Assembly (NCBI GenBank): GCA_900016875.1
Contig: FCNR01000023.1
Coordinates: 1 to 64,000 of the forward strand
Source: Eubacteriaceae bacterium CHKCI004
GTDB taxonomy: Bacteria > Bacillota > Clostridia > Lachnospirales > Lachnospiraceae
Direction: 5' to 3'
Length of the DNA stretch: 64,000 nt
Under the pieces are notes generated by a model. That model did not search any database, had not been told where the DNA came from, and saw only the letters and a program-made list of their open reading frames with translations. This document shows positions 1-21,833 of this stretch, in pieces. The translations under genes and the position numbers were made by a program. Within the stretch, counting starts at the first letter, position 1; every line of letters begins with the position of its first letter.

Positions 1-106
1 CCCTTTTGGATAAGTCGGGTGACGATAGGGTGCGGATTATTCCGCTTTGATACCTTGCCCTATTACTTGCTCAAGGTAAGATTATTACAGCCCCTTACGG
101 GCGCAC
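1..106 (-). mobile_element. 5' end of a group II intron (runs off the window)
   Basis: Read leftward on the minus strand from 106, the sequence starts GTGCGCCC, matching the GUGYG start of bacterial group II introns, and continues into GC-rich paired segments like ribozyme domain I until the window ends. It directly follows codon GTA (109..107) of the giant helicase gene, just after its conserved TPVSNSM motif. Translation through it adds only V-R-P and then a TAA at 97..95. Domain V, any reverse transcriptase and the 3' exon lie outside the window, so the intron call rests on the 5' consensus plus the sharp break in a conserved protein. Confidence 0.8.
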
Positions 107-3100
107 TACCATAGAATTGCTGACCGGCGTTCCCGTTGAAAAAATCACGCCCTTTCCACCCGTGATCTCATCCAGATAGCGGCATTTCATATACATATCA
201 GAGGATTTCTGCGCTTCGGTCTGTGCGACCCCGCCCACATTCCGCATTTTGGTTGTCAGATAAAGGTTCTTATAACCGTCCGCCTCATCCACAAACAGTC
301 GGTCCACGCCCAGTTCCTCAAACGTAATCATATCATCTTTCCGGCTCTGGTCATGAAGCCGTTTCAACCGTGTCTCTAAAGACTTTTTGGCCCGCTCCAT
401 CTGTTTTACCGTAAATCGGCTTCCCTGGATCTTCTTTGCCTCTGCAATCCCTTCAATGATTTCGTCAATCTCCATTTGCAGCATACGTTCCTGCCGCTCG
501 ACGCTTAACGGGATCTTCTCAAACTGGGAGTGTCCGATGATCACGGCGTCAATGTCGCTGGTAGCGATCCTGCCGCAAAACTTTTTCCGGTTTTTCTTCT
601 CAAAATCCTTTTTTGTTGCCACCAGAATATTGGCTGCCGGATAAAGCTGGAGCCACTCAGCGGCGAACTGCTCGATGATGTGATTTGGCACCACAACCAT
701 AGATTTACTGCACAGCCCCAGCCGTTTGCACTCCATCGCAGCCGCCACCATCGTATAGGTCTTTCCTGCGCCCACCACATAGGCCAGCAGCGTATTCCCG
801 CCGTAAATGATCCGGGCCACGCCGTCCTTCTGGTGTTTCCGCAAAGTAATTTCCGGGTTCATACCATAGAAATGCAGGTGGCTCCCGTCATACTCCCGTG
901 GGCGGATCGCATTGAACCGCTCATTATAATCTTCGGTCAGCCGCTGCCTGCGCTTTGGATCTTTCCAGATCCATTCCTGGAACGCCTGCTTGATCAGATC
1001 CTGCTTTCCCTGCGCAATAGCGGTTTCCTTTCTGTTCAGGATTGGCTTACGTTTCCCCTCTTCATCCTCCACATAGTCAAACACACGGGTATCCCTCAGA
1101 TTCAGCGTATCTTCTATGATCTTATAGGCATTTACCCGGTTTGTTCCATAGGTGTTGGTAACACGGGGATTTCCCCTGTCCATGCTCTTCCCTTCGATAT
1201 TCCATTCCCCGGTATGCCGGGAGAAATGGACTTTGATCTTCCACTGGGAATAGTTCGGCGTCTGCAACAGTTCAAACATAAAATCTGCGATATCCGATTC
1301 CGGTATCCATGTGGCTCCCAATCGTACACTGATCTCAGAAGCGGTCAGATCCTTGGGCTGTACTTTTTCCAGTGCCTTCACATTGCTCCGGTATGTTTCC
1401 GAGATTTCCGCTGCTTGCTTTGCCTCCCGCAGTTTCTTTCGCACGTTGCCGGAAAGATACTCGTCCTCAGATACAAACCGGGGCTGCTCCATGCCCTCAG
1501 ACTCCGGCAGACGGAAGATCACGCCTTTTAGTTCTTCTTCCACCTCGCCGGCGCTTTTCCCGGTCAGGGAACACAGATACTCCATGTCCACGCAAGCTTT
1601 CTCAGAAAGGGACAGAGATAAAGCCTCACTTGCGGTATCCACTTTCGTTACCGTCTCGTGAGGCTTGATGGTCCGTTTCGTGAACATATCCGCCTTCCGT
1701 TCCAGCGTTCCGTCCTCTGCCACAATCTCAAGGGAACAGAGAAGAGGGTAACTGCTGTCATCAGAAAACGCCATACTGTTTGCCCTGGAATTCAGCAGTC
1801 CATACTTTCTCTGAAACAGATCATACAAATGGTTCAGCTTTTTCTGCTGTCTTTCAATCTCTTCATCGGGATACCCTTCGGTCTGGTAAGCGATCAGCTC
1901 CCTGGTACAGTCCCGGATAGCAATCATGCCTTTCACACGGTTCTGCGCTGTCACGGATAGTTCCACCGGTTTCATGCGGCTGTTTTCCCGGTAATAGATC
2001 TTCCCGTCATAAACCGTATAGGAAAAGTTTGCCACAGACGGATCAGCCGGGATGGAATGGTCCTCTTCCTCCACCAACTCTTCCGCCTCATAATCCGTGA
2101 TCTCCGCCTCAAGGTTCTCCACTGCCTGCTCCAGAAGTTCCTTTAAATCCCTGTCTGGATAAGGCTTGCATACAAGCTGTGGCCCATACGGGCCGGACAC
2201 GATCTCCTGCTCGCCCAGTACCATTTCCGGGTGCTGCTGAAAATAGGGATTGATACTGACCACCCGGTGTCGGCTTTCGCCCTGTTCATTCAAATGGTCA
2301 TTTTCATAGATCTTCTCCACTTCCACCCAATCCGGCAGATCCACATTTATTTCTCTCGGCGTCTCCCGCTTCTGGAAAAAGAGAATATCCGTATTGATCT
2401 CTGTACCGGCATTGGCAAGGAAAGCATTGTTTGGCAGGCGGATCGCACCTAACAGGTCGCACCGCTGGGCGATATATCTCCGCACCCGGTCATCCCGCTT
2501 ATCCATTGTCCCGCCGCTGATCCCGTTGGACGTAATCAGTGCAAGCACACCTTTCGGCCTCGTCTTGTCAATGGATTTTGCGATAAAATAGTCGTGGATC
2601 AGAAAGTTGTACTTATCGTATTTCCTGTCCAACACCTTATAACTTCCAAACGGCACATTTCCTATGACTACATCAAAAAAGCTGTCCGGCAGATCTGCGT
2701 CCTCAAAGCCCTGAGCAGCGATGGTGGACTTCTGGTAAAGCTGCTGTGCGATCCGGGCGGAAATGCTGTCGATCTCCACACCGTAAACCTTGCAGTCAGA
2801 CAAACTCTCCGGTTTCCGTCCTATAAAATTTCCCGTTCCGCAGCTTGGCTCCAGAATGTTCCCGGATTTCAATCCCATGTTCTCCAACGCCTGATACATG
2901 GCGCTGATGACCACCGGCGGCGTATAAAAGGCGGTCAGCGTGGACTGTCTCGCCGCAGCATACTCTTCCTCTGTCAGGACCGTCTTTAATTCCAGATATT
3001 CCGTTGACCAGGAAGATTTCGTCTCGTCAAAAGCGTCAGATAAGCCGCCCCAGCCAACATATCCGGAAAGGATCTCCTGTTCCTTTGGCGTAGCAAAGCG

Positions 3101-5875
3101 GTTTTCTTCCTCACACTTCTTCAATAGCTGGATCGCCATGAGATTCGCACGGAACTTCTCTTTAGCGGTGCCCTCCCCCAAATGCTCATCCGTGATCCGA
3201 TACTGGCTGCGGCTCTCCTGGGGAATTTCCGGGTGCAGATCAAACCCTCTTACCCTCCCGGCAGGTTTCTTCTGTGTCCATGCCGGGGCCAGATCCTCCA
3301 GAACTTCTTCCGGTTCCTTCTCAAAAGGATTGTCCTCCGGTTTTATCCCGGTAAATCCGTCCTCCTGCTCCTGCGCCATTTCCTGTGTGGGAGCCGGTTC
3401 CTCCCTGTCTTTTTCGGCTGGTTCCTCTGATGGTTTCCTGTATACCTTCAGATGATCATTCGCCGGATTTTCCCGTACCCGGCGGTCGAACACCTCTCTT
3501 GGCATTTTCTCTGTGAAGAGCGGATACATCTGGTCACGCAGAACCACCATCTCATCGGAGATAAAGTCAATGGAATATTCCTTTGTGCCTATTGTGACAA
3601 TCGTATCCACCTGCAGATCATAAGGCGGATTCATAGCAGGTAAGTCTGCAATCCCGACGATCAGTTCAGACACTTCGGAATAGTTTTCATCCTCCGTGTC
3701 CATCCCTTCCCGGACACGGATCAGATAACTGTAAATTTCCTGCACAGACTGGGGATCTTCCAACTGTTCCTGCAACTGGCGCAGAACATCTTCCTGTGCC
3801 TCTCCTGCCTCAATTGTATCCTGATATTCATACCAGTCATATGACTGGTAAAACGCATTGAGACGTCCGGCCAGAACCTCTTCCCGGCTCTGTGCCGGAA
3901 CAGGCTCCGGGGGAGCCTGCGTGTTTTCTCTTTCGGCTGGTATTGGAGTAAATAAGCTAAACGCTCCGTCCCGGAAATCTGTAAGGTCTTTATATGCCTG
4001 TTTCATGGACGGGTATCGCTGATCATAATCTGCGGTTCCCGCAAGAACCTCTTCCATCATGGAAAGGATTTCTTTTACCCGGTTTGGATCATCAAGCTGC
4101 GGACGGATCTGGTCTATCGCTCTATGATAATCTGAGCCATACGGATACGGACGTAAAAACGTCTCCGGCTGATGATAGAAAAAGTTATAAATACCTCTCG
4201 ACAGAACTCCTTTTTCATACTCCGGGATATACTCCAGTTCCTTTTCTGTCATATACCGTCCGACAGAAATCAGTTCCTCGATCCGTTTTGCAACCGCTGT
4301 CCATTTCAGGGTAGTTTCATAGTCTTTCCATTTGATAAAATACCCTTTTGCACTGGTTCCCCGGTTAAATTTTTCTCCTAAATAGTCCGATCCTGATCCC
4401 CATATCCCGTATTCCTGTTTTAAAAAATCTGCTCTCTCCTTATTGCTGTGTCCTTGCAGAAAATAGGAGTAAATTCTGTATTTCCCATGTTCAAAGGGAG
4501 AGCCGGACTGCAGCGCATGGTCGATGATTTCCTGTGGCATAGAAAAAGCAGGAGATTCCTCTCCTGCCAGTTCTTCCAAAAATGTCTGTTGTTCTGCCAC
4601 CGTTGGCTGTGGCTCTGCAGTTGGTTCCTGCCTTTCCTCTTCCTGCGGCGGTTCCTGTCCGGTTAGCTGTAGATCAGCTCCCTCATCACGATTTCTTCCG
4701 CTGCCTGCCGGATATTGCTCATCTGCTGTACCCACATCATCTGGTCTTTCGCTTTCAGCTCTTCCGTCACGCCCCAGGCTGCTTTCATCTGCCCGGTCAG
4801 CACTTCCATCCGCTCCTGCGCCTCCCTCTGTACTTCGTTCAGATGGCTGCTCAGTTGCCCTGTCGTCAGCAGATTCAGATAAATCCCGTATCGGTGTTCC
4901 TTCAGATACGTCTGACGCAGGGAAGCGTACTTCCCAAGGTGTACTTCCGGTCCGTCCGGCACGGTCAGATCCGGAAGAAGATAATCGCCCTGTCTGCTGT
5001 ATGTGATCGCTCTCATGTGTAACGCCCCTTTCTGTAATCTGTCCTCTGTTTTCGCTTTCATTATATCGGCCTGTCTCTCTCCCGGCAAAGGTGCGATTTT
5101 TCCTTCTCTCTGCTTTTCTCAGCTTATTGACCGTATCGGAAATCTCAGATAATGCCATTTCCGCCACATCACTGGCCGCAACGCCAAACAGGTTGATCAT
5201 TTCCGGCGTATTAAAATCCGTGATACTCCGGAAGTCCTCTGTGTCCAGGTACAGGTCGGTATCCACGCCGCACCGTACCATGACCATGTAAGCAGTGCTG
5301 GCCGCTAAAAGTTGACGGGTCTCCACCTCTACGTTGTACTCATCCACTTCTTCCAGATAACTGCCTTTCCGTCCTGCAAGCAGATCCGACAAATAATCCG
5401 TAAGGTTATCTTCTGCCGCAATCTTTGCCGCCTCCAGTATGGTTTCCGCAAATCCTGTTACTGTGTCATCCACGCCAAAGGCATTGACAAGGGTTTCCCT
5501 CACATCCGGCTGATATTCTTCCGGCACTTCCCACAAAGGCACTGGCCGGAGCAGGCGGCGGAAACGCCCTTCCTGCGTATCAGAAACGTCATAATAATAT
5601 TTCAGCCGCAGTTTCGGACTGTCCTTGTCAAAAACGGCAATCCCTTTGGAATCCCTCTTTACCCACCGTCCAAACTTCTCATTCCAAACTTTCATAGGCA
5701 GCACGGCGGACGCCTCCGGGCGCTGCGCATAGATTAAAATCTGTTCATCAAAAGGCAGACGGAAATTCCGGCAGGCAGAGCGCAGGAAAGACATCCAGTT
5801 TCCCGGACTGTCCGTAACTTCCTTCACTGCCTCCGCATACAAGTCTGTGATCAGGTCATATTTCTTCTTTGCCAC
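95..5875 (-). CDS. ICE-type DNA methylase/SNF2-like helicase, 5' exon interrupted by an intron
   Basis: Giant polyvalent protein typical of Firmicutes conjugative elements, thought to modify or remodel element DNA. The open frame gives 1926 residues. The N-terminal domain begins MAKKKYDLITDLY. A Ser/Arg/Glu/Asp-rich linker spans about 255-430 and a second conserved region about 440-650. An adenine methyltransferase follows, with motif I EPSCGTGNF near residue 1005 and an NVPF catalytic motif (usually NPPF/Y) near 1072. A helicase starts with Walker A VGAGKT near 1698, then VDEAD near 1860 and the STGTPVSNSM motif. The frame then enters the group II intron and stops, so helicase domain 2 must be in a 3' exon beyond the window or be lost. 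ATG at 5875 is preceded by GGAGG. Splicing would be needed for a full protein. Confidence 0.85.
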   Translation of the reverse strand: MAKKKYDLITDLYAEAVKEVTDSPGNWMSFLRSACRNFRLPFDEQILIYAQRPEASAVLPMKVWNEKFGRWVKRDSKGIAVFDKDSPKLRLKYYYDVSDTQEGRFRRLLRPVPLWEVPEEYQPDVRETLVNAFGVDDTVTGFAETILEAAKIAAEDNLTDYLSDLLAGRKGSYLEEVDEYNVEVETRQLLAASTAYMVMVRCGVDTDLYLDTEDFRSITDFNTPEMINLFGVAASDVAEMALSEISDTVNKLRKAERRKNRTFAGRETGRYNESENRGQITERGVTHESDHIQQTGRLSSSGSDRAGRTGSTPWEVRFPASDVSEGTPIRDLSESADDRATEQPSERSTEGGAGADGSADRADESSLGRDGRAESERPDDVGTADEQYPAGSGRNRDEGADLQLTGQEPPQEEERQEPTAEPQPTVAEQQTFLEELAGEESPAFSMPQEIIDHALQSGSPFEHGKYRIYSYFLQGHSNKERADFLKQEYGIWGSGSDYLGEKFNRGTSAKGYFIKWKDYETTLKWTAVAKRIEELISVGRYMTEKELEYIPEYEKGVLSRGIYNFFYHQPETFLRPYPYGSDYHRAIDQIRPQLDDPNRVKEILSMMEEVLAGTADYDQRYPSMKQAYKDLTDFRDGAFSLFTPIPAERENTQAPPEPVPAQSREEVLAGRLNAFYQSYDWYEYQDTIEAGEAQEDVLRQLQEQLEDPQSVQEIYSYLIRVREGMDTEDENYSEVSELIVGIADLPAMNPPYDLQVDTIVTIGTKEYSIDFISDEMVVLRDQMYPLFTEKMPREVFDRRVRENPANDHLKVYRKPSEEPAEKDREEPAPTQEMAQEQEDGFTGIKPEDNPFEKEPEEVLEDLAPAWTQKKPAGRVRGFDLHPEIPQESRSQYRITDEHLGEGTAKEKFRANLMAIQLLKKCEEENRFATPKEQEILSGYVGWGGLSDAFDETKSSWSTEYLELKTVLTEEEYAAARQSTLTAFYTPPVVISAMYQALENMGLKSGNILEPSCGTGNFIGRKPESLSDCKVYGVEIDSISARIAQQLYQKSTIAAQGFEDADLPDSFFDVVIGNVPFGSYKVLDRKYDKYNFLIHDYFIAKSIDKTRPKGVLALITSNGISGGTMDKRDDRVRRYIAQRCDLLGAIRLPNNAFLANAGTEINTDILFFQKRETPREINVDLPDWVEVEKIYENDHLNEQGESRHRVVSINPYFQQHPEMVLGEQEIVSGPYGPQLVCKPYPDRDLKELLEQAVENLEAEITDYEAEELVEEEDHSIPADPSVANFSYTVYDGKIYYRENSRMKPVELSVTAQNRVKGMIAIRDCTRELIAYQTEGYPDEEIERQQKKLNHLYDLFQRKYGLLNSRANSMAFSDDSSYPLLCSLEIVAEDGTLERKADMFTKRTIKPHETVTKVDTASEALSLSLSEKACVDMEYLCSLTGKSAGEVEEELKGVIFRLPESEGMEQPRFVSEDEYLSGNVRKKLREAKQAAEISETYRSNVKALEKVQPKDLTASEISVRLGATWIPESDIADFMFELLQTPNYSQWKIKVHFSRHTGEWNIEGKSMDRGNPRVTNTYGTNRVNAYKIIEDTLNLRDTRVFDYVEDEEGKRKPILNRKETAIAQGKQDLIKQAFQEWIWKDPKRRQRLTEDYNERFNAIRPREYDGSHLHFYGMNPEITLRKHQKDGVARIIYGGNTLLAYVVGAGKTYTMVAAAMECKRLGLCSKSMVVVPNHIIEQFAAEWLQLYPAANILVATKKDFEKKNRKKFCGRIATSDIDAVIIGHSQFEKIPLSVERQERMLQMEIDEIIEGIAEAKKIQGSRFTVKQMERAKKSLETRLKRLHDQSRKDDMITFEELGVDRLFVDEADGYKNLYLTTKMRNVGGVAQTEAQKSSDMYMKCRYLDEITGGKGVIFSTGTPVSNSMVVRP
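4663..5016 (-). CDS. tnpV: TnpV-like transposon protein nested inside the methylase/helicase gene
   Basis: 117-residue protein starting MRAITYSRQGDY, resembling the TnpV family carried by clostridial transposons (conserved GDYLLPDL, HLGKY, YLKEHR; C-terminal NIRQ-AEEIVMREL). Its molecular role is not established. ATG at 5016 is preferred over the upstream ATG at 5088 because AAAGGGG lies about 9 bases before it. The whole gene is on the same strand as the methylase/helicase gene but in another frame, and it coincides with residues about 286-404 of the host protein, exactly the low-complexity linker. The linker therefore looks like a by-product of keeping tnpV. Confidence 0.75.
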   Translation of the reverse strand: MRAITYSRQGDYLLPDLTVPDGPEVHLGKYASLRQTYLKEHRYGIYLNLLTTGQLSSHLNEVQREAQERMEVLTGQMKAAWGVTEELKAKDQMMWVQQMSNIRQAAEEIVMRELIYS

Positions 5876-5887
5876 AACTCTGTCCTC

Positions 5888-6244
5888 CTATCGCTCCTGT
5901 TCTTTTTCTTTCTGTCTGGCAGGCGGGTATTTTTCCATAAACTTCTGGACCGTGCGGCAATCCCCGTCGCAAAAATCCCAGTCTTTCTCTGGATCAATCT
6001 CTAAATATCCGTCTGGCGGAAGTCTGATCGGTTCACGGGTAATGATGGAACCAAAATGATTGACCATGATCCCCTTTGCAATCTGTACCGGATCTCCCAG
6101 TCCTTCATCGTCATACCGCACTTCATATAAATACAGTCCTTTTGGTACGGTACTCCGGTCAATCCTCAGATCATGGAAAAGAGCCGGTTTTCCTAACACC
6201 CGGACTTCTGTAAAGGTTTCTTCCATTGCGTTATATCTTGCCAT
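5888..6244 (-). CDS. LPD28-like ICE accessory protein
   Basis: 118 residues starting MARYNAMEETFTEV. It resembles the small proteins with a large-polyvalent-protein-associated domain (LPD28 type) found beside the methylase/helicase gene in Lachnospiraceae elements; recognisable segments are LYLYEVR, IAKGIMVNHFG and a C-terminal CDGDCRTVQKFMEKYP. ATG at 6244 has AAAGGAG at good spacing, so the ten extra residues from 6274 are unlikely. It ends 13 bases before the methylase/helicase start, so the two are probably co-transcribed and co-translated. Function unknown. Confidence 0.7.
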   Translation of the reverse strand: MARYNAMEETFTEVRVLGKPALFHDLRIDRSTVPKGLYLYEVRYDDEGLGDPVQIAKGIMVNHFGSIITREPIRLPPDGYLEIDPEKDWDFCDGDCRTVQKFMEKYPPARQKEKEQER

Positions 6245-6497
6245 ACGTTCTGTCTCCTTTATGCTTTTTCTCACTCATGGGCCGATACTGGATTCCATTC
6301 TTCTCCATCTGCTTTGCAAACTGGCGGATATTTCTGCACTTTCCGTCTATTTCCACCTGTTCCTCGCTGTGGTAACGGCAGAACGCACAGGAGCTGTCCC
6401 CGTTCCCATACTCCAGACACAAAAAAGAACTGTCCGGAAGCGAAAAAAGCGATTTCCCTCGGCTATCCGTAAAGCAGATCAGTTTTCCACTGCTCAT
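6231..6497 (-). CDS. Small Cys-containing ICE protein, unknown function
   Basis: 88 residues (MSSGKLICFTDS...). A CAFCRYH segment plus other cysteines suggests metal binding, but no family was recognised. The start ATG overlaps the stop of the upstream gene as ATGA (6497..6494) and is preceded by GGGAGGCGGGGAG, so translation is coupled. Its 3' end overlaps the next gene by 14 bases. This tight overlap with neighbours on both sides supports it as a real gene in the accessory operon. Confidence 0.6.
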   Translation of the reverse strand: MSSGKLICFTDSRGKSLFSLPDSSFLCLEYGNGDSSCAFCRYHSEEQVEIDGKCRNIRQFAKQMEKNGIQYRPMSEKKHKGDRTYGKI

Positions 6498-6769: not shown

Positions 6770-6859
6770 CTACTTCTTCCGGTTCCGCAGGTTCAGCCAG
6801 ATCAATGCCCCTGCGATAAATACCACTAAGGCAACTGTTATCAAAATCTTTGCACTCAC
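6770..6859 (-). CDS. 29-residue single-pass membrane protein coupled to the adhesin
   Basis: GTG at 6859 overlaps the adhesin stop as GTGA. The frame reads VSAKILITVALVVF... and ends NLRNRKK at TAG 6772..6770: one hydrophobic helix followed by a basic tail, like a small type I/III membrane protein. The gene is too short for usual ORF callers. It is supported by the stop-start overlap, a credible membrane helix, positive-inside charge, and a terminator-like hairpin right behind it. No family recognised. It may help insert or anchor the adhesin, which is inference. Confidence 0.5.
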   Translation of the reverse strand: MSAKILITVALVVFIAGALIWLNLRNRKK

Positions 6860-9800
6860 GCCTTATCTTCCTCCTTCCTTTTCCTCATTTTTACTGCGGT
6901 CAGAATGCCAAAAGCTGCTACTCCCGCACCGGACAGGGCAGATAACCCGATCCACAGGCCCGGCCTGCTGTCATCCCCGGTCTTTGGTGTCGTGATCAGT
7001 TCCTCCGGGATCTTCTCATTGGTCATCGTGGCTTTTACGATCTGTCCGTCCTCCTTGATCTCAAAGGCGTATTCGGACTCATCAATCTCATATCCTTCCG
7101 GCGCATTGTATTCCTGATAGGTGTATTTCCCGTACCGCAGGGTAAAGGTGGCGATCCCGTTCTCATCTGTCACACCTGTTGCGACAATATTTCCATCCTC
7201 GTCCTTAATGCGGAACCCGGCGTTTGGAAGAGGTTTTCCATCCGCAACATCTGTCTTGGTCAGCTCCAGTTTTCCGGTAATCGGCTGGTTGATAAAGCCA
7301 ACGCCTGCCTCATTTTCCACATCTACGATTTTTCCGTCCTCACTGATCTCAAAGTAATAAGCATTCTCATCCAGCTTGAAGCCTTCCGGGGCAGTCTTTT
7401 CTTTCACAAAATATCCTCCGTAGAGCAGACCGTCCGTCTGGTAAATGCCCTCTGAGATTTCCGGGATTTCTCCCACAAGTTCATCCTTTCCGGTCAGTTT
7501 CTGGTCTTTGTCCGTATCTGCATACAACTCAAATACAGCACCCGTCAGCTTGTTCGCCGGATATTCTGCGTCCACTTTCGTCAGACGGACACTGCCCTCA
7601 ATGAGTTTGTTGATCAACTCCACCTCGATCACTTCCTCATCTTCTGTAACCGATACATAATGGAGGGCCTCATTCAACACATATCCTTCCGGGCTTGCGA
7701 TCTCCCGGACGATCCATCTGCCAAAGGGTACATCCCCAAATGCAAAGGCTCCGTCCTCATCAGAAGTAGTTACCATTAAGGCAGTATCTTTCGTAAATTC
7801 CTCTGTACCTGCGGAAAACAGGCCAATCGTTGCGCCTTCCAGTGCCTCCCCGTCCGTATCTACTTTCTTACCGGAGATTTTCCCCCGGATCAGTTCATTC
7901 TCAATGGCATTTCCCTCATTTGCGGAAATGTGGACAACAGCGGTATCCTGCCCCTGATAGGTAAAGTCCACAGGATAGGTTTCTTCTGACAGAAGATAGT
8001 GCTGATCCGTGGCAACTTCTTTCACATAATACTTGCCAAACGGCAGGTCCGTCTGAAATGTGACAGTTCCCTCTGTACTGCAGAACACGATCTCGATCAG
8101 ACCGTCCGCCGGGATCACGGAACCGTCTGCTGCCGTCAGATCCTCTGCGGCATACAGGCCAAAGGCCACGTTCTGGATCTCTCCCGCATTTCCGATCCCA
8201 AAGATTTCATCCTGTTCCAGTGTCTTTGTAAGGTCAACCGTCACTTTCTGCCGCTCATTATAGAAAGCGGTGTCCGCCTCTGTTACAGATACTTCCTGTC
8301 CGGCATAGGTCAGCTCCACCTCATGGGTTTCGGTATTCAGCACCAGACCGTCCGGCGCTGTCTTTTCCACAATCTGGTACTTACCCAGATACAGTTCTTT
8401 TGTCTCAGCCTTTCCTTCTTCATCTGTGGTAATGGTATCTACTACTTCCCCGGCGGCTGCCCGCACAGTTCCATCCGGTGTTACAATGTCCTCGGCAGCA
8501 ACCACTTCATATACCGCCCCGGCCTGTCCAGTTACTTCGTAAACAGGAGTATAAATGTTTTCTCCTTCTACAAGATTCCCGTCTTTGTCTACCACACCGT
8601 CTCCGGATACCTGCACAGAGGAAAATTCTTCCCCTGTCTTTGTCACAAGGATCTTGCCTTTCTGCGGTATATCCTCTTTTTCCACTGTAATCACGGTCAC
8701 TCCATTGTCCTCCCCGGACTGTTCCTTGGATACCGTGAATGGAACCGGCGTACTGTCCAGTACATACCCATAGGGAGCCTGCACCTCTACCAATGTGTAA
8801 TTTCCGTAAGGAAGAACCTCCGGCGTAATGAGATAACCATCACTTCCTGTATAGAAAGTATCCAGTTCTGTTACCTCCGGATAGGTATACTTCATGGTCA
8901 CAAGATTCCCGGCCTCGTCATAGATCTGGAACCCAGCTCCCGCAAGAGGAATGGTATTTCCGGTTTCTGCATCTTTTTTGACCACTTTGATATAGGATTC
9001 AAACAGGCGGTTGTTGATGAGATAGCGGTAAACTTCTCCATTACTGCTGATATATACGTCAAAATCCTCAATCATCTCCCGGCCTTCCCATCCTTTCGTC
9101 TGGTGGACGGTATAAATACCATAAGGCAGGTCTTTGGTCTCGGCATATCCGTTCTCGTCACACACCAAAGTATCCCGCTCACTGTCCTTTGCACTGTCAT
9201 AGCTGCCTGCGCTCTTTAAGTACACTTGGAACTCTGCGCCTTCCTCCGGTGTCTCAATCTGTGTACTGCCATCATCTGTGTGTTTAATGATAGAGATTTT
9301 CCCTTTGATGACCTGCTCAGTCACATCATTGGAAGTATCGTTCAGCTCTACCGTATAAAGGGTTGCCTCCGCACCCACATGGTAGGAAGTCTCATCCAGA
9401 AAATACCCTTCGGACGGAGCAATCTCCCGGATTGTCCAGTCATCGCCGCATATATAATATTTTGTGGTAAAGCTGCCCTTGCTGTCTGTGGTGTAGGTGT
9501 CAATCAATGTGTCCCCGTTATAGATCCCGTATACCGCACCTGCCAGTGTAGCGTCTCCCTGCGGAATTCCTGTCTCCCGGTCTGTCTTTATAACCGTTAC
9601 CCGGAACTTTTTCAGTACGTTATGGACAGTGGCATTGGTCACTTCGTTCCAGTTGACAGTCACGTTCTGAGCCGCCGGAACCACGTATCGCTCTGCTGTC
9701 TCGACTTCCTCCAGTGTATATGGTGTATCGCCGGAAATCAGAATATCAGAAAACGTGGCAACACCTGTGCTGTCCGTAACCGCATACTCATCCACCGGGA

Positions 9801-11070
9801 TACCAGAAAGAGAGGTTCCATAAAGGTGGAACTTCATGCCTTCTACCAGACCATCCTCAGAAGTCTTGGTCACTTTCAGACTGCCACGCTTGAGGATATT
9901 GGAAAAATCCACGGTAGCGGTCTCCCCGCCTTTGACTTCCACAGTCTGCGCTTTCTGCGGTTCATATCTGTTCTCGGTCAGCTCGGTTACCGTATAGGTT
10001 CCCGGCTGAAGGTTTTCCACCTTAATGGTTCCATCCTCCCCGGTTGTCACGGTCTGGTCAATCCCGTTTCCAGTGATCTGAAATTTCAATCCGGCTACCA
10101 CACCGTCCTCGGAAGTTTTCACAATCTGGATATGCCCATAAGGGATTTTCACATTCAGATACGCTTTCACGGCTGCGGTATTCTCCACGCCCGTGACAAT
10201 GTCCTGCAAAGACGGATCTCCATAAGCGATCAGCTTGGCGCTGCTGCTCACGGTGGGGATCTTCTTGGTTGCGGATAACTGCACGTTCCCGGCAATCGCT
10301 TTGCTGGATGTGATGGTCAGTGTATTTCCGGACGTGCTGACTTTCACATCACTGTTGGATGATGTGAAATTGAATTTTGACAGAACACCGTTGCTGTCTG
10401 TCAGTTTCAATACATACTGTTTTCCGTCCCATTTCAGTTCCTGGGGAGCGCTGTCTGTACTTCCGGACGCAAAGCTGGGGATGGTTCCGTGGCTGACCAT
10501 GCCGGAAATGATCTGGTTGTATGCTGCCGCTATCCCGCTGTTCGCCCCGCCTACACAAAGGCTGTTATAAAATTTGGCGTCCGTCTGAGCATACGGGGCG
10601 GTGGCATTCCTGCACCCGGTCACAATCTCCCAGATAACCATCTGTGTCGCAAGCACCTTTTCATCTTCCGTGCCGGACAGACCGCCCATGCTACCCTGTG
10701 CGCCATACAGCAGGGCAAGATTTACAGCGTCCTGTTTTGCCTTTCCTAAGTTGTTCCACACCACAGAAGCGTCCTTCTCCAGTGTGTTCCCGGTATGCAG
10801 GGAGATTCCCGGCTCGATACAGTAGGCATTATCCCCGTCTGCATAGATCCGGGTTCTGGCCTCTCCCGCATGGCTGAACGTGACTCCGTTATGAGACGCA
10901 GTCTGCTGATAACGGATGGTATTCCCATTTCCGTCATAGCAGTAGGCGAACGTGATCGTTGCCCGCTGGGACGCAGCCGATACCGTGGCGGCCGGAAGGA
11001 CGGACAGTGTCGTGACCGCCGCCAATGCCAATGCGACTCCTTTCCTGAATAACTGTTTGATTTTTTTCAC
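6856..11070 (-). CDS. LPXTG-type thioester/Cna-B repeat surface adhesin of the ICE
   Basis: 1404-residue cell-wall-anchored protein. A signal peptide (MKKIKQLFRK then a hydrophobic run to VSA) is followed by a thioester domain with YCIEPG near residue 84 and a TQMVIWE segment near 140, the Cys-Gln pair that forms an internal thioester for covalent host attachment. About ten SpaA/Cna-B (VaFE-like) repeats follow, each opening like KVTKTSEDG or KVVKKDAETG and expected to carry Lys-Asn isopeptide bonds. The C terminus has TTPKTGD, a membrane helix and KMRKRKEEDKA, a sortase signal. GTG at 11070 is chosen because GGAGGA lies just before it; the upstream ATG at 11085 overlaps that ribosome site. 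The gene has its own leader after the parAB terminator. Confidence 0.88.
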   Translation of the reverse strand: MKKIKQLFRKGVALALAAVTTLSVLPAATVSAASQRATITFAYCYDGNGNTIRYQQTASHNGVTFSHAGEARTRIYADGDNAYCIEPGISLHTGNTLEKDASVVWNNLGKAKQDAVNLALLYGAQGSMGGLSGTEDEKVLATQMVIWEIVTGCRNATAPYAQTDAKFYNSLCVGGANSGIAAAYNQIISGMVSHGTIPSFASGSTDSAPQELKWDGKQYVLKLTDSNGVLSKFNFTSSNSDVKVSTSGNTLTITSSKAIAGNVQLSATKKIPTVSSSAKLIAYGDPSLQDIVTGVENTAAVKAYLNVKIPYGHIQIVKTSEDGVVAGLKFQITGNGIDQTVTTGEDGTIKVENLQPGTYTVTELTENRYEPQKAQTVEVKGGETATVDFSNILKRGSLKVTKTSEDGLVEGMKFHLYGTSLSGIPVDEYAVTDSTGVATFSDILISGDTPYTLEEVETAERYVVPAAQNVTVNWNEVTNATVHNVLKKFRVTVIKTDRETGIPQGDATLAGAVYGIYNGDTLIDTYTTDSKGSFTTKYYICGDDWTIREIAPSEGYFLDETSYHVGAEATLYTVELNDTSNDVTEQVIKGKISIIKHTDDGSTQIETPEEGAEFQVYLKSAGSYDSAKDSERDTLVCDENGYAETKDLPYGIYTVHQTKGWEGREMIEDFDVYISSNGEVYRYLINNRLFESYIKVVKKDAETGNTIPLAGAGFQIYDEAGNLVTMKYTYPEVTELDTFYTGSDGYLITPEVLPYGNYTLVEVQAPYGYVLDSTPVPFTVSKEQSGEDNGVTVITVEKEDIPQKGKILVTKTGEEFSSVQVSGDGVVDKDGNLVEGENIYTPVYEVTGQAGAVYEVVAAEDIVTPDGTVRAAAGEVVDTITTDEEGKAETKELYLGKYQIVEKTAPDGLVLNTETHEVELTYAGQEVSVTEADTAFYNERQKVTVDLTKTLEQDEIFGIGNAGEIQNVAFGLYAAEDLTAADGSVIPADGLIEIVFCSTEGTVTFQTDLPFGKYYVKEVATDQHYLLSEETYPVDFTYQGQDTAVVHISANEGNAIENELIRGKISGKKVDTDGEALEGATIGLFSAGTEEFTKDTALMVTTSDEDGAFAFGDVPFGRWIVREIASPEGYVLNEALHYVSVTEDEEVIEVELINKLIEGSVRLTKVDAEYPANKLTGAVFELYADTDKDQKLTGKDELVGEIPEISEGIYQTDGLLYGGYFVKEKTAPEGFKLDENAYYFEISEDGKIVDVENEAGVGFINQPITGKLELTKTDVADGKPLPNAGFRIKDEDGNIVATGVTDENGIATFTLRYGKYTYQEYNAPEGYEIDESEYAFEIKEDGQIVKATMTNEKIPEELITTPKTGDDSRPGLWIGLSALSGAGVAAFGILTAVKMRKRKEEDKA

Positions 11071-11089
11071 TTCATTCTCCTCCATTTCT

Positions 11090-11296: not shown

Positions 11297-12232
11297 TTAC
11301 CTTTCCCGTCCTCTCTCCCGTCTGCGGTACAGTTCCAGCGCCTTAATGATCGTGTCCTCCATCTGCTTTGGCGTGGTTCCCGGAGAAAAATATTTGTCAA
11401 TCCTCTTTTTCGGGATTTTAAACTGCTCCACCTGGTTCGGCTTTTCCTCGGTCATGATCGACAGGATCACATCCTCGTTCAGCTTTCCCGCCTCCGCAAA
11501 CTTCCGCATTTTAATCGCCTGTGCATGACTTGGAGTACAGTCCTCCAGTTCCATGGTGTCAAAAAGTGTCTGTTGTTGCTCTTTCGGCAGGTAAGACAAC
11601 TCTACTGCCGGACGCATGGCAATCTTTCCCTCATCCACCATATCCAGAATAGGTGAAATGAGTTCGGTAAGACGGATATAGCGACGGATTGTTTCTCTGC
11701 TTTCGCCCACTTCTTTTGCCAGAACCTCATTTGTTCTTATACCTAAAGAATTTGACACCACTGGTGTCATATTTTTACTAGGGCGTCCTGCTTGTCTGTT
11801 CATGGCCTCCAACTTCATTTTATAAGCAAAGGCTTTTTCTGACGGTAAGACTTTCTCCCTTTGCAGGTTAGAGTCCACCATGATGATCGTAGCCTCATCA
11901 TCTGTCAGATTTCGCACGATACAAGGCATGACCACTTTCCCGGCAAGCTCACTGGCGAATTTTCTCCGGTGTCCTGCCACCATTTCATAACCGCCTTCCG
12001 GTTTCGGACGCACCAGAGCAGGATTGACCACGCCTTTTTCCCGGATACTTGCTGCCAGCTCTAGCATACTTTCATCCTGCTTTACCTTATACGGATGGTC
12101 AGGAAAATCGCTGATTTCTGTCAGAGGAATATCTGCAATAAACTCCCGTTTTGCCTCGTCACGTTCCTCCTGCGTACTGAACAGATCATCTGCTGCGGGA
12201 AGGGGCAGTTTTATTTCTCTGCCTTTCGCCAT
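11297..12232 (-). CDS. parB: ParB/Spo0J-family partition protein
   Basis: 311 residues from MAKGREIKLPLP. The ParB N-terminal nuclease-like domain is clear (IPLTEISDFPDHPYKV, then VRPKPEGGYEMVAGHRR, with GHRR the CTP/DNA-binding motif). A helix-turn-helix region follows (NEVLAKEVGESRETIRRYIRL). It should load at a parS-like site and work with ParA to keep the excised circular element segregating. The start at 12232 has GGGAGGTGG ahead of it; the longer frame from 12319 only reads back inside parA. It overlaps parA by 47 bases, indicating one transcript. The C terminus is basic (YRRRERGRER). Confidence 0.9.
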   Translation of the reverse strand: MAKGREIKLPLPAADDLFSTQEERDEAKREFIADIPLTEISDFPDHPYKVKQDESMLELAASIREKGVVNPALVRPKPEGGYEMVAGHRRKFASELAGKVVMPCIVRNLTDDEATIIMVDSNLQREKVLPSEKAFAYKMKLEAMNRQAGRPSKNMTPVVSNSLGIRTNEVLAKEVGESRETIRRYIRLTELISPILDMVDEGKIAMRPAVELSYLPKEQQQTLFDTMELEDCTPSHAQAIKMRKFAEAGKLNEDVILSIMTEEKPNQVEQFKIPKKRIDKYFSPGTTPKQMEDTIIKALELYRRRERGRER

Positions 12233-13013
12233 CCCGTACCACCTCCCTTGTAAATGACGCATAGGCTTTTGCCACTGTACTGTTTTTGTCATAGCTGTAA
12301 ATGCTTTGTCCTGCGGCACTTGTTTCCGCTGCTTTCACGCCAACCGGAATGACAGTCTGGTAAACCTTAACCATTCTCCCGTAATTCTGACGGATACTCT
12401 CTGCGGTCACACGGGCCAGATTGGTCCGCATATCCGCAAGTGTCAAAAGAACACCATCCACCTTCAACGCCGGATTGATCTGTCTTTGTACCTTCCCGAT
12501 TGTTTTCATAAGCTGTGTCATTCCCTTTGCCGGAAGATACTGGGCCTGCACCGGAACAATTACACTGTCGGATGCTGCCAGTGCATTGATCGTCAGCATA
12601 CCCAAACTCGGCATACAGTCGATTAACACATAGTCGTAGCCGCTTTTTACTTCATTCAGGTAATTTTTCAGCGTCAGTTCCCGGCTCATGGCATTGACAA
12701 GCATAACTTCCAGTCCCGCCAGTTCGATATTGGACGGGATCAGATCAACGCCTTCCTCATGGTGCAAAATCCCGGCGTGGCTATCCATTTCCCGGTCAGC
12801 CACAATCTCTTCTAACTGTGTGGCAAGTGTCACAGAAAGGTTATCCTGCTCCGGCCATCCCAGTGAAGTTGTCAGATCTCCCTGCGGATCAGCGTCCACC
12901 AGAAGGACCTTTTTCCCTTCTCTGGCAAGCCCGGTCCCTAAATTGACGGTGGTAGTGGTTTTCCCTGTTCCGCCTTTCTGGTTGGCAATCGCAATTACTT
13001 TGCAATTCCCCAT
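12186..13013 (-). CDS. parA: ParA-family partition ATPase
   Basis: 275 residues from MGNCKVIAIANQKGG. It has a deviant Walker A KGGTGKTTT, a Walker A' region VLLVDADPQGD and the Walker B region YVLIDCMPSLG, all typical of ParA/Soj. It drives segregation of the replicating ICE together with ParB, encoded immediately downstream with a 47-base overlap. ATG at 13013 is preceded by AAAGGAGGG; an alternative start at 13049 would add MAIKFLGKEGTI, but that stretch contains the ribosome site. Transcription probably starts near 13190 and passes a terminator-like hairpin. Confidence 0.93.
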   Translation of the reverse strand: MGNCKVIAIANQKGGTGKTTTTVNLGTGLAREGKKVLLVDADPQGDLTTSLGWPEQDNLSVTLATQLEEIVADREMDSHAGILHHEEGVDLIPSNIELAGLEVMLVNAMSRELTLKNYLNEVKSGYDYVLIDCMPSLGMLTINALAASDSVIVPVQAQYLPAKGMTQLMKTIGKVQRQINPALKVDGVLLTLADMRTNLARVTAESIRQNYGRMVKVYQTVIPVGVKAAETSAAGQSIYSYDKNSTVAKAYASFTREVVRDGERQRNKTAPSRSR

Positions 13014-13090
13014 AATGGTTCCCTCCTTTCCTAAAAATTTAATAGCCATCTTCCTGTGTGGGGAAATGGCTATGTATAAAAATGGGCATG

Positions 13091-17266: not shown

Positions 17267-18250
17267 TTATTCTAATTCTTCTAACTTATTAATGCTCCCC
17301 AAAAAATGTTCTTCTACTAAGGATACTCTGTTTCTTTCCAGTTTTTTATATCTTTCATACTCACTATGAGCTTTTTCAAGCGCTTGCTTATGTGTAACAG
17401 TCCCTTTAGTCTTAAGTATATCCCTTCTTGTCATTTTCAAATAGTCATCTATGGTTTCCAACCAGTCTTTCATATACATAGGCTCATGATTTAATGCATG
17501 TACCTCCGCAATATCCAAATAGGCGGTAACAATTTTATTTAATGCATCCATTTCGTCTTTATTCAAATAGTTTTTTGCTACTTCTACGTCTGTCTTTTTT
17601 ATGGATTTCCCCTGCCAGGAAGTTAATCCCATATGTTCTTTTTCTGCATCCGCTCTTTGATATATCACTTCTGCAGCTGTATGCTTATGTGCTGCCCAAT
17701 GCATTTTATTCTGTACCTGTTTAAAGAAAAGAATTGAACTTTCTGCTCTTGGATCATAATCAATGCTAGTTGCATAAATTTCCAATACTTTTCTCCAAAA
17801 AACCTTTTCTGATGACCTGATATCACGAATACGTTCTAATAATTCATCAAAATAGTTTCCGCCCCCTAAGCGTTTTAAACGATCATCATCTAAAGCAAAA
17901 CCTTTTTGCATATATTCCTTTAAAATATTCGTTGCCCATATTCTAAACTGAGTACCACGCAAAGATTTTACTCTATATCCCACAGATATAATCACATCCA
18001 GATTATAATAATCCACTTGATAGGTTTTTCTATCATCAGCAGTATGGGCAAATTTTGCCCATACTGATTCTTTTTTCAATTCTCCCTCTTTAAAAATATT
18101 GCGTATATGTTTTCCTATAACACTTCTGTCTCTTTGAAACAACTCTGCCATCTGTTCTACAGAAAGCCATACCGTATCATCTACAAAAGTTGCCTCAATC
18201 TTTGTTAATCCATCTTCTGTAGTATACATCAGAAAATTAGATTCCTTCAT
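17267..18250 (-). CDS. rhuM: RhuM family protein
   Basis: 327 residues from MKESNFLMYTTEDG. Matches the RhuM family first noted on Salmonella pathogenicity islands: WLSVEQMAELFQRDRSVIGKHI near the N terminus (helix-turn-helix-like), YNLDVIISVGYRVKS and RGTQFRIWATNILKEYMQKGFALDDDRL, then a C-terminal helical part. Its biochemical role is unknown; RhuM genes are often found beside restriction or defence genes. It begins six bases after the upstream nuclease/STAND-like gene stop, so the two form an operon. The start at 18250 is preceded by GAGAGGTGAG. It ends 89 bases before the uvrB start. Confidence 0.85.
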   Translation of the reverse strand: MKESNFLMYTTEDGLTKIEATFVDDTVWLSVEQMAELFQRDRSVIGKHIRNIFKEGELKKESVWAKFAHTADDRKTYQVDYYNLDVIISVGYRVKSLRGTQFRIWATNILKEYMQKGFALDDDRLKRLGGGNYFDELLERIRDIRSSEKVFWRKVLEIYATSIDYDPRAESSILFFKQVQNKMHWAAHKHTAAEVIYQRADAEKEHMGLTSWQGKSIKKTDVEVAKNYLNKDEMDALNKIVTAYLDIAEVHALNHEPMYMKDWLETIDDYLKMTRRDILKTKGTVTHKQALEKAHSEYERYKKLERNRVSLVEEHFLGSINKLEELE

Positions 18251-18255
18251 CTGTC

Positions 18256-19839
18256 TCACCTCTCTATCTGCTGAAATATTCTGCCAAAACCAATATCCCT
18301 GTAATTTTGCTCTGTCTCATATCGCTCAGACAGCTTATGGATCTCCTGATGATATCGCAAAATCATTTTGTATTTATCATAAAATAAAATCGAATCAGAA
18401 TTTATTTTATTCACAGCGCTTTGGTATATCTCGCCATATATTTCTTCCGACGCATTGATTTCATCGAGAACCTTCAGATATTCCACATACTGTGAATAAT
18501 ATTGACAATTCCTGAACAAAGTTGTGTGGTATTTCTCAAAATTTTCTTTGACCAGAGCAATAAGGAAATCTCTTGCAGACGGATTTTGATAGGTGATCGT
18601 CAACAACCCTTCTTCACCTCTTTTATATCTGTCCGTTCGGATTACAGTCTTTTCCAGTTCAATGACAGCATCGGAAAAATTTTTCCACTCAGAACTATTT
18701 GTCCGTGCTTTCATCTCATCATTATAACTTTTCTCCAGATATTGCATTTCTATCGGCATCGGAAAGATGAGTGTCAACATGTATAATATTTTGGCTTCAT
18801 CCGATAAATCATGAAAAATCTTTTTCCAAAATTCATGGGGACACTCGATATATTTATCAAACTCTGCTACACATTTTTCTGCCGGCATATCCGGTTTAAT
18901 ATGCTTTGTAAATAATTCTATGACCCGTGGATTATAATTAGGCGAATAGATCACTCTGTGATAATGACTCTGCAATTCCCTGGTCTGTTCCCACGTCAAA
19001 CAGGAACTTTTCAGATGTCCATAATAAATCTGCAGCTTTTCTTCGTCTGAATACTGCTCTACCCTGCATTCAAGTTCATAGTCTTTCACCATACGACGCA
19101 GTTCTTCATTCTGTTCCAGCCCCTGCTCCAAAATATATTCTCGCGTGGTCATAACAAGCAGACAATCTTTATGTCTGCGAATACGATCAATAAATGTTAC
19201 TAATTCTCCTGCCGGCTCTCCGGAAATAATAATAACCCTGTTCTTTCGCAGCTGCATGACTGCATCTTTAAAAACGGACGTTTCAACAAAAACCTCTCTC
19301 TTTTTTAATATCTCTTCATAACAGGTAATTGATTTTTGCACCAGCGCACTGTTTACCATTCGAAATAATTGTTTGCGCAATATATTGGCGCTGGGAATCC
19401 ACAATTGATAATATTTATCTTCCACTTCCCGGTATTCTTTTTGGCTGAGCAGATTATTCAAATCCTCTTTCATCAATATATCGTCTGTACTAACAATATA
19501 CGGAGACATCAGCTGATATATCTCATCTTTTTTCCTCACAGTAATGTTATCTGCTATCGCCAGAATGTACCGATCTACCCTTTTCCCCTTTGCCAGGAGT
19601 TTATCCTGTTTTGTTCTCTCTGTGCGCATTATCTTCATGATACTGTCGCCAGCATTTTTTATTCTCTTTGCCTGAAAGATGATTGTATATCCATCTTTGG
19701 CCACATATCGCCCGTCGATTCCCATATCTCGGCCTTCTGCAAAAGACTCCAGAATAATGTGTTCTTTTATTTGTATGATATCTCTTGCAAAATTTTGAAA
19801 TTCTGTCGGTGAAAATGCATGATAAAAGTCATAAGACAT
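18256..19839 (-). CDS. Restriction-endonuclease/STAND-like defence protein lacking its P-loop
   Basis: 527 residues. The N-terminal part (GRDMGIDGRYV...IIFQAKR) has the D...QxK pattern of Mrr-type PD-(D/E)xK nucleases. Residues about 195-230 resemble an nSTAND3 NTPase but read VIIISGEPAGELVTFIDRIRR...LLVMTTREYIL. In the family, GEPG is followed by GKT and a long stretch with Walker B before the LxxFIxRIRR segment. Here GEP is joined directly to that later segment, consistent with an in-frame loss of some 70 residues. The C-terminal helical sensor-like region is retained. ATG at 19839 follows GGGGGTGG. Probably a defence ATPase that is now inactive or altered. Confidence 0.65.
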   Translation of the reverse strand: MSYDFYHAFSPTEFQNFARDIIQIKEHIILESFAEGRDMGIDGRYVAKDGYTIIFQAKRIKNAGDSIMKIMRTERTKQDKLLAKGKRVDRYILAIADNITVRKKDEIYQLMSPYIVSTDDILMKEDLNNLLSQKEYREVEDKYYQLWIPSANILRKQLFRMVNSALVQKSITCYEEILKKREVFVETSVFKDAVMQLRKNRVIIISGEPAGELVTFIDRIRRHKDCLLVMTTREYILEQGLEQNEELRRMVKDYELECRVEQYSDEEKLQIYYGHLKSSCLTWEQTRELQSHYHRVIYSPNYNPRVIELFTKHIKPDMPAEKCVAEFDKYIECPHEFWKKIFHDLSDEAKILYMLTLIFPMPIEMQYLEKSYNDEMKARTNSSEWKNFSDAVIELEKTVIRTDRYKRGEEGLLTITYQNPSARDFLIALVKENFEKYHTTLFRNCQYYSQYVEYLKVLDEINASEEIYGEIYQSAVNKINSDSILFYDKYKMILRYHQEIHKLSERYETEQNYRDIGFGRIFQQIER

Positions 19840-20016
19840 CAACTTGCCACCCCCGCTTTATCCTGAAAGTTTCCTTATAACCCGCTTCTATAGAAATAAC
19901 CTGAATACCTGCTATCGCACTCCCTGATTGTAGTTGAAATTTTTTTTAGTATACCACACCCTCCCTCAAATGTATACATTTTTCAGAACGTTTGTTCTTT
20001 TTTAGGCGTAAATTTT

Positions 20017-21688: not shown

Positions 21689-21718
21689 GTTATCGTTCGC
21701 TATACATACAGCATTACT

Positions 21719-21808
21719 CTGGAGAGTCTTCACCGGCTTCGGCATACGGTGAAGCGCCGAAGGTGTACGGCAGATAGTTCTGCCAATCTCTCAGGCAAAA
21801 GGACAGAA
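21719..21808 (+). promoter_or_regulatory. Glycine riboswitch, single aptamer
   Basis: Shows the glycine aptamer landmarks in order: GGAGAGTCTTCACCG, the core GCGCCGAAGGTG, and the signature AATCTCTCAGGCAAAAGGACAG, whose CTCTC pairs back with GGAGAG to close P1. Only one aptamer is evident rather than the frequent tandem. It is followed by an intrinsic terminator and a sodium:alanine/glycine symporter gene, so glycine should set read-through into the transporter. Confidence 0.93.
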
Positions 21809-21833
21809 CACGTAAATGCATGTTTTTCTTCGG

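Follow-up and report, generated by a model that had tools for sequence, protein, structure and literature searches.

One stretch of DNA that appears to encode two proteins: a tnpV gene nested in the methylase/helicase gene of Tn1549-like conjugative elements

Background

Can a single strand of bacterial DNA be read in two frames over the full length of a gene, and be kept that way in many lineages? The question is raised by a stretch of 64,000 nucleotides (nt) from Eubacteriaceae bacterium CHKCI004 (assembly GCA_900016875.1, contig FCNR01000023.1, positions 1 to 64,000; hereafter the window), in which a small open reading frame (ORF) of the TnpV family lies wholly inside a giant methylase/helicase gene (hereafter MH) on the same strand. 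A sequence-only reading of the window had proposed this nesting and had called it unusual for two conserved proteins. Comparison with a large set of relatives makes it very probable that tnpV is a genuine and old same-strand nested gene, situated in the MH linker of conjugative, Tn1549-like elements of gut bacteria, with the two frames read from one mRNA. On the sequence comparisons below, a single stretch of DNA appears to encode two proteins.

Results

A tnpV gene inside the MH reading frame

The tnpV ORF starts with an ATG at position 5016 of the minus strand, ends with a stop at 4665-4663, and translates to 117 amino acids (aa). Its product matches PF14198 over 111 of 111 profile positions, at 142.8 bits (cut-off 27; E = 5e-42). 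The MH frame is open right through tnpV on the same strand, and tnpV is the +1 frame of MH. An MH codon begins at each third codon position of tnpV; tnpV third positions are MH first positions, and tnpV second positions are MH third positions. The place, strand and ribosome site that the sequence-only reading assigned to tnpV are borne out by these coordinates, by the family match and by the Shine-Dalgarno (SD) motif (Table 1). Its further claim that tnpV coincides exactly with the low-complexity linker of MH is overstated: tnpV does sit inside that linker, but it spans residues 287-404 of a stretch running from about 263 to 433, that is, the middle two thirds (judged by eye, without a low-complexity program). 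The genome from which the window comes has six TnpV matches, three nested in MH genes and three standalone.

The arrangement recurs with a fixed phase

Relatives were gathered as 292 loci (cited by L-number where one must be told apart) from GTDB genomes, IMG/VR, whole genomes and named plasmid records, some places being present twice. When only matches to more than about 200 of the 282 model positions of the MH N-terminal domain (N-domain) are counted, TnpV follows directly on 156 of 161 distinct N-domains, always in the same phase and within the open MH frame. Weaker matches left out of this count include L195/L129, L254, L261, L262 and L264, and no TnpV was found at any of these. On the TnpV side, 13 matches shorter than 90 positions were dropped and five at contig edges were set aside (including L059, where another frame is 95% open). 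This leaves 151 distinct nested TnpVs, all in the same phase and none in the other; 148 have an MH N-domain directly upstream and three lie at contig starts. The 61 distinct standalone TnpVs never adjoin an N-domain, and in none of them is another frame open throughout (largest open share 0.84).

A draw of 398 phylum-wide genomes, with at most six N-domain candidates scored per genome, allowed a comparison independent of our own TnpV profile. In this draw, 25 of 25 N-domains scoring over 200 bits are followed directly by a match to PF14198, judged by eye from the coordinates; one of these PF14198 matches falls under the Pfam cut-off. Among IMG/VR contigs, a search with the TnpV alignment returned 24 copies, 7 nested and 17 standalone; every nested copy has an N-domain match (one a fragment) and the same phase. 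The nested arrangement is also carried by a plasmid record of Streptococcus suis (class Bacilli).

Two variations on the arrangement were seen. By eye, the TnpV N-terminal part is different in a divergent MH clade (L121, L171, L173, L182), which perhaps represents a distinct TnpV subfamily, and it may be different too in the S. suis copy, L291. In L245, L247, L249 and L250 the N-domain and tnpV are intact and the MH frame breaks some 15-45 codons past the tnpV stop; the sequence downstream differs among these loci, and the breaks are therefore put down to insertions or decay.

The MH frame is kept free of stops

Openness of the MH frame was not an entry criterion for the nested set. In 134 distinct nested sequences the overlap contains no MH-frame stop at all, against a mean of 4.6 in 47 standalone tnpV genes. 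A T at a TnpV third position, when followed by AA, AG or GA, would give an MH stop; none of the 2887 such sites in nested genes has it, against 214 of 1039 in standalone genes, while T fills 24.7% (nested) and 37.6% (standalone) of other TnpV third positions. Shuffling synonymous codons of nested tnpV produces a mean of 2.6 MH-frame stops, and 7.9% of shuffles are stop-free, compared with 134 of 134 real genes. Gly, Asp, Ser, Arg and Glu are abundant in the linker. Codon-shuffled controls resemble it in composition (with less Ser and more Lys), and most of that composition is therefore a by-product of the TnpV frame. The MH linker is simply the other-frame reading of TnpV DNA, open and hydrophilic, with a sequence that is not conserved.

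Selection acts on amino acids in the TnpV frame

Synonymous sites were compared in both frames, as the sequence-only reading had suggested, using pairs of equal length with TnpV DNA identity of 0.75-0.985 and N-domain identity of at least 0.7. These gave 202 pairs, 31 of them disjoint (each locus used once); the pair statistics are uncorrected for shared ancestry. Over the 31 disjoint pairs, the proportions of synonymous and nonsynonymous sites that differ (pS and pN) are 0.315 and 0.054 in the MH N-domain. Within the overlap they are 0.056 and 0.096 in the MH frame (ratio 1.7), 0.219 and 0.049 in the TnpV frame (ratio 0.22), and 0.081 and 0.088 in the third frame, taken as a control. Over the 100 codons past the overlap the MH frame has pS 0.236 and pN 0.048 (18 pairs).

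TnpV pN is below pS in all 31 disjoint pairs, as expected under purifying selection, and in 30 of 31 the overlap has a smaller MH pS than the N-domain. Overall, MH pS drops 5.6-fold in the overlap. TnpV pS is itself lower than N-domain pS in 23 of 31 pairs; this may reflect constraint from the MH frame, although the regions differ and the comparison is insufficient on its own. In nested pairs of less than 20% divergence, 57-63% of differences fall at TnpV third positions and 12-17% at second positions; the corresponding figures for standalone pairs are 56-66% and 4-16%. The pattern of differences in nested pairs is that of an ordinary gene in the TnpV frame. Both proteins are conserved as wholes, as had been claimed, but the linker segment of MH is not. 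The sequence-only reading would have been troubled by conservation of one frame only: amino acids are in fact conserved in the TnpV frame only, yet MH is conserved there as an open frame, with no stops in the 134 distinct sequences and with TnpV lying within an open MH ORF at 156 of 156 distinct N-domain loci that have it.

A start signal of its own

Of the 85 nested representatives, 81 were scored for an SD, the other four being divergent copies that lack the TnpV N-terminus; among the 47 standalone genes, 16 were scorable. A duplex of -6 kcal/mol or lower is found at the tnpV ATG in 75 of 81 nested genes, as against 10% of 1383 other ATGs in the N-domain, a contrast that somewhat flatters the nested genes because each of them was represented by the best among a few nearby ATGs, while every background ATG was scored singly. 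In 76 of the 81, the end of a motif such as AGGAG precedes the ATG by 8-11 nt; in 59 the distance is exactly 8 nt. Codon choice for Arg (AGG makes up 64 of the 84 Arg codons preceding the ATG and 204 of 1411 elsewhere) was considered as proof of a nucleotide motif and set aside, since the excess is partly built in by counting only loci that already have the motif.

The simplest account would be one mRNA with two initiation sites, the MH start and an internal SD and ATG about 850 nt downstream. Ribosomes from the MH start would cross the overlap and produce the giant protein, its N-domain joined to the enzymatic part by a disordered spacer, while others would start at the conserved internal SD and ATG just past the N-domain and produce TnpV. 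Production of both proteins and internal initiation are what we infer. In the overlap, selection would hold the amino acids of TnpV, and the MH frame would need only a stop-free, hydrophilic sequence.

Relatives that lack tnpV

Five N-domains are without TnpV: L204 (MH ORF of 2042 aa), its relative L259 (601 aa), L194 (592 aa), L252, in which MH is broken right after the N-domain, and L253, at a contig end. Among the first three only L204 has a long MH ORF. A very divergent MH of 2354 aa (L195), with a match too weak for the N-domain count, shows no TnpV either. In L204 and L259 a single ORF still connects the N-domain to the methylase part, through an unrelated, acidic linker rich in Glu and Pro; in L194 the SD and the ATG survive, with some 35 codons ahead of a stop. 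An N-domain tree (88 representatives, quick method) puts the clade of L204 and L259 among tnpV-bearing rows, and L194 as sister, on long branches, to the tnpV-bearing L192. Probably tnpV was lost in L204, L259 and L194, and the linker sequence went with it.

The linker follows tnpV, because the linkers of L204 and L259 are unrelated to it and L194 keeps only a tnpV remnant. This, together with the unconserved MH amino acids of the overlap, supports the earlier suggestion that the TnpV frame dictates the linker; among the few tnpV-less relatives whose frame is open over the junction, none retains the same linker.

Alternative explanations

Overlapping open frames are common in the window and the linker is of low complexity, so that the tnpV frame might be a chance open frame shadowing a conserved linker of MH, the only real gene of the two. 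A chance frame would have to match a curated family at 142.8 bits, have free-standing homologues, carry a conserved SD, and gather differences at its own third positions (MH first positions) with pN/pS of 0.22 where the supposedly conserved MH frame has 1.7. We consider this next to impossible, and rejected it on the substitution pattern, the start signal and the free homologues. The missing amino-acid conservation of the MH segment would suit a locus in which N-domain, TnpV and methylase/helicase are made separately and MH is open across the overlap only incidentally. One public plasmid record could be read this way, as its entries here are TnpV and an SNF2 gene that begins 1.9 kb downstream, with nothing for the N-domain (its gene table is incomplete); its ORF, however, is open over the whole stretch. 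The tnpV-less L204 and L259 still join N-domain and methylase part in one ORF, and an incidental frame is hard to square with stop-free overlaps in 134 of 134 distinct sequences, where standalone tnpV averages 4.6 stops, and with T at none of 2887 stop-making sites when it fills 24.7% of the others. Separate products are accordingly very improbable. A +1 frameshift out of the N-domain, giving an N-domain-TnpV fusion in place of internal initiation, is highly improbable. The TnpV frame is indeed the +1 frame of MH and in the window is open for 37 codons upstream of the TnpV model start, but L034, L040 and L067 leave merely 4-8 open codons there, and 76 of 81 genes have the SD motif 8-11 nt ahead of the ATG. 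Frameshifting was disfavoured on the short upstream open stretches of such loci; slippery sites were not searched for.

Several observations, besides the flattered SD comparison, weigh against tnpV as a nested gene expressed from the MH message. Just 3 of the 16 scorable standalone genes (of 47) have a strong SD at the expected ATG, for which differing upstream contexts are the sole explanation we can offer. At 30-40% divergence the share of differences at third positions is lower in nested pairs (43%) than in standalone pairs (51%). The MH amino acids of the overlap are unconserved (pN/pS 1.7, with pN above pS in 26 of 31 pairs), and it is therefore the openness of its frame that must carry the MH side of the case. 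Since long MHs without tnpV exist (L204 and L195), tnpV is dispensable. Finally, the TnpV match is weak (38-54 bits, with an iteratively built profile) in the five most divergent places (L074/L121/L197, L171, L173, L176 and L182).

Origin of the nesting

Two histories could each yield the present pattern. A free tnpV may have been trapped as its neighbours fused through its other frame, or tnpV may have been born by overprinting in the MH linker and later have escaped repeatedly; we give the former an even chance against the latter. Overprinting is favoured by the TnpV tree, in which, with a midpoint root, the deepest rows are nested and 36 of 39 standalone representatives form one clade, L003 with L057, and separately L006, falling among nested rows (three changes in total). 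That tree is built on 113 columns, has 20 of 121 inner branches starred and no outgroup, and a root within the standalone clade likewise needs three changes. Unrooted and poorly supported, it is compatible with either direction (born in the linker or trapped). Trapping is favoured by the confident predicted fold of TnpV, by the ordinary codon-position G+C of its frame (0.56/0.30/0.70) and by a codon usage that resembles N-domain usage more closely (rho 0.46; MH frame, 0.16; 53 of 81 loci). Codon-position G+C and codon usage look ordinary when the overlap is read as TnpV and odd when it is read as MH, and so lean towards the linker as the newer reading, although present-day constraint cannot date a frame.

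A blastp search of the flanks (about 1.5 kb on each side) of the standalone L003, L057 and L006 against MH parts found no MH remnants. By eye, L003 and L057 come after the C-terminal portion of a large serine recombinase, and a ParB gene precedes L006.

The proteins and their element

MH carries an adenine methylase and a helicase in one chain (N6_Mtase, 5.9e-13; ResIII, 1.6e-5). The MH ORF of the window, which ends inside the helicase part, has no SNF2 profile match; one relative is annotated as SNF2-related downstream. MH belongs with the polyvalent proteins that bear a DarB-like methylase-helicase dyad. Its N-domain found no convincing PDB match: ArdC (6i89) came only at rank 7 with E 2.3, and a resemblance to ArdC is no more than a lead. 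TnpV is predicted to form a beta-hairpin followed by helices (per-residue confidence, pLDDT, 85.6; predicted template-modelling score, pTM, 0.67), and searches with this model by Foldseek and VIA-align gave no convincing PDB match.

Table 1. Features of the tnpV/MH locus and of the genes upstream of it (window positions)
Feature	Position	Strand	Remarks
tnpV, nested gene	4663..5016	minus	117 codons + stop; translation, PF14198 match, purifying selection in TnpV frame
MH ORF, giant methylase/helicase (polyvalent protein)	95..5875	minus	1926 aa; N6_Mtase 971-1176, ResIII 1676-1777
MH N-terminal domain, A1 family, preceding nested tnpV	5018..5866	minus	398.9 bits; tnpV downstream of 156/161 distinct N-domains
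MH linker, residues ~287-404, other-frame reading of tnpV DNA	4663..5016	minus	hydrophilic; sequence not conserved
Shine-Dalgarno motif GAAAGGGG of tnpV	5025..5032	minus	8 nt before ATG; -7.9 kcal/mol duplex; within MH codons Glu-Arg-Gly
LPD28 protein	5888-6274		upstream of MH
1409-aa protein, thioester domain + ten SpaA stretches	6856-11085		upstream of MH
ParB, ParA	11297-13049		upstream of MH

The MH ORF of the window stops (window 1-106, minus strand) just after the helicase motif STGTPVSNSM. It looks as if MH was cut short here by the 5' end of a putative group II intron, the intron itself lying beyond the window. On reading, L008 has the same intron-like sequence followed by a putative reverse-transcriptase frame; in L007, L009 and L012 the MH ORF continues past the point where the window copy stops. 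Rfam matched nothing in L008 or L010, and its single match in the window is a glycine riboswitch elsewhere (21709-21816, plus strand), which directly precedes an ORF at 21816.

The LPD28, SpaA-type, ParB and ParA proteins upstream of MH are mobile-element backbone. TnpV is found on mobile elements: in the window it has its host gene and the LPD28, ParB and ParA neighbours, and the flanks of standalone copies include Mob_Pre (3/38), Recombinase (3/38) and MobA/MobL (2/38). This survey used the longest ORF that the locus contained to either side, which is not in every case the immediate neighbour, and showed no common neighbour hinting at TnpV function; the commonest upstream families reach 3/38, and response regulators 4/36 downstream. 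Our preferred guess, held as less likely than not, is that TnpV would be a small accessory protein of transfer or establishment, useful alongside a DarB-like MH and also carried alone by other mobile elements. Elsewhere in the window (17267-19842), a RhuM-family protein adjoins an nSTAND3 NTPase, possibly a defence pair.

Discussion

Same-strand nested genes are a known kind. In phage lambda, Rz1 lies fully within Rz on the same strand with its own start, as tnpV does in MH; unlike tnpV and MH, Rz and Rz1 act as one pair in lysis. The comS gene of Bacillus subtilis has 46 codons and a narrow distribution, whereas TnpV, at 117 codons, constitutes a Pfam family and occurs both nested, across a phylum sample, and as a free gene. 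PMC12350097 describes comS as a same-strand gene nested within srfA. In Thermus thermophilus, rpmH is described as fully nested in rnpA, one initiation site serving two adjacent ATGs (PMC9841429). Two real proteins and full same-strand nesting are common to that case and ours, but nested tnpV has its own SD about 850 nt into the host gene.

Polyvalent proteins with a DarB-like methylase-SWI2/SNF2 helicase dyad, whose combination of methylase and helicase MH shares, are reported to be numerous in Tn1549-like and other conjugative elements (PMC5512222); the main text of that paper has no occurrence of "TnpV" or "overlapping". From homology with lambda Xis, a role in excision has been postulated for the TnpV of Tn4451 (PMC3158075). 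The TnpVs of Tn4451 and Tn6104 have the same name and element type as ours and are listed in that source as separate ORFs; the sequences were not compared here. A literature search of open-access papers, with subscription papers and preprints outside it, found no report of tnpV nesting in MH. To our knowledge, a curated family that is nested in so many lineages and yet also occurs free is new.

We suggest, tentatively and as somewhat less likely than not to hold in full, that the linker of a major class of conjugative-element MH proteins is the by-product of a trapped free tnpV, whose flanking genes fused via its alternative frame, and that tnpV has persisted there while almost all of the sampled MH lineages diverged, escaping on two or more occasions to become a free mobile gene. 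If this is true, a nested gene would be the stable ancestral home of much of the widespread TnpV family, and the giant MH protein would tolerate almost any hydrophilic open sequence as its linker.

Among public plasmid records, one lists tnpV and omits the N-terminal part of MH, and another lists the giant gene and omits tnpV (the gene tables are incomplete). This suggests that TnpV, and complete polyvalent proteins too, are probably undercounted in mobile elements. With about 150 distinct natural sequences and free-standing controls, the tnpV/MH pair can show how one stretch of DNA is shared out by selection between its two products, and whether a nested gene is able to escape from its host.

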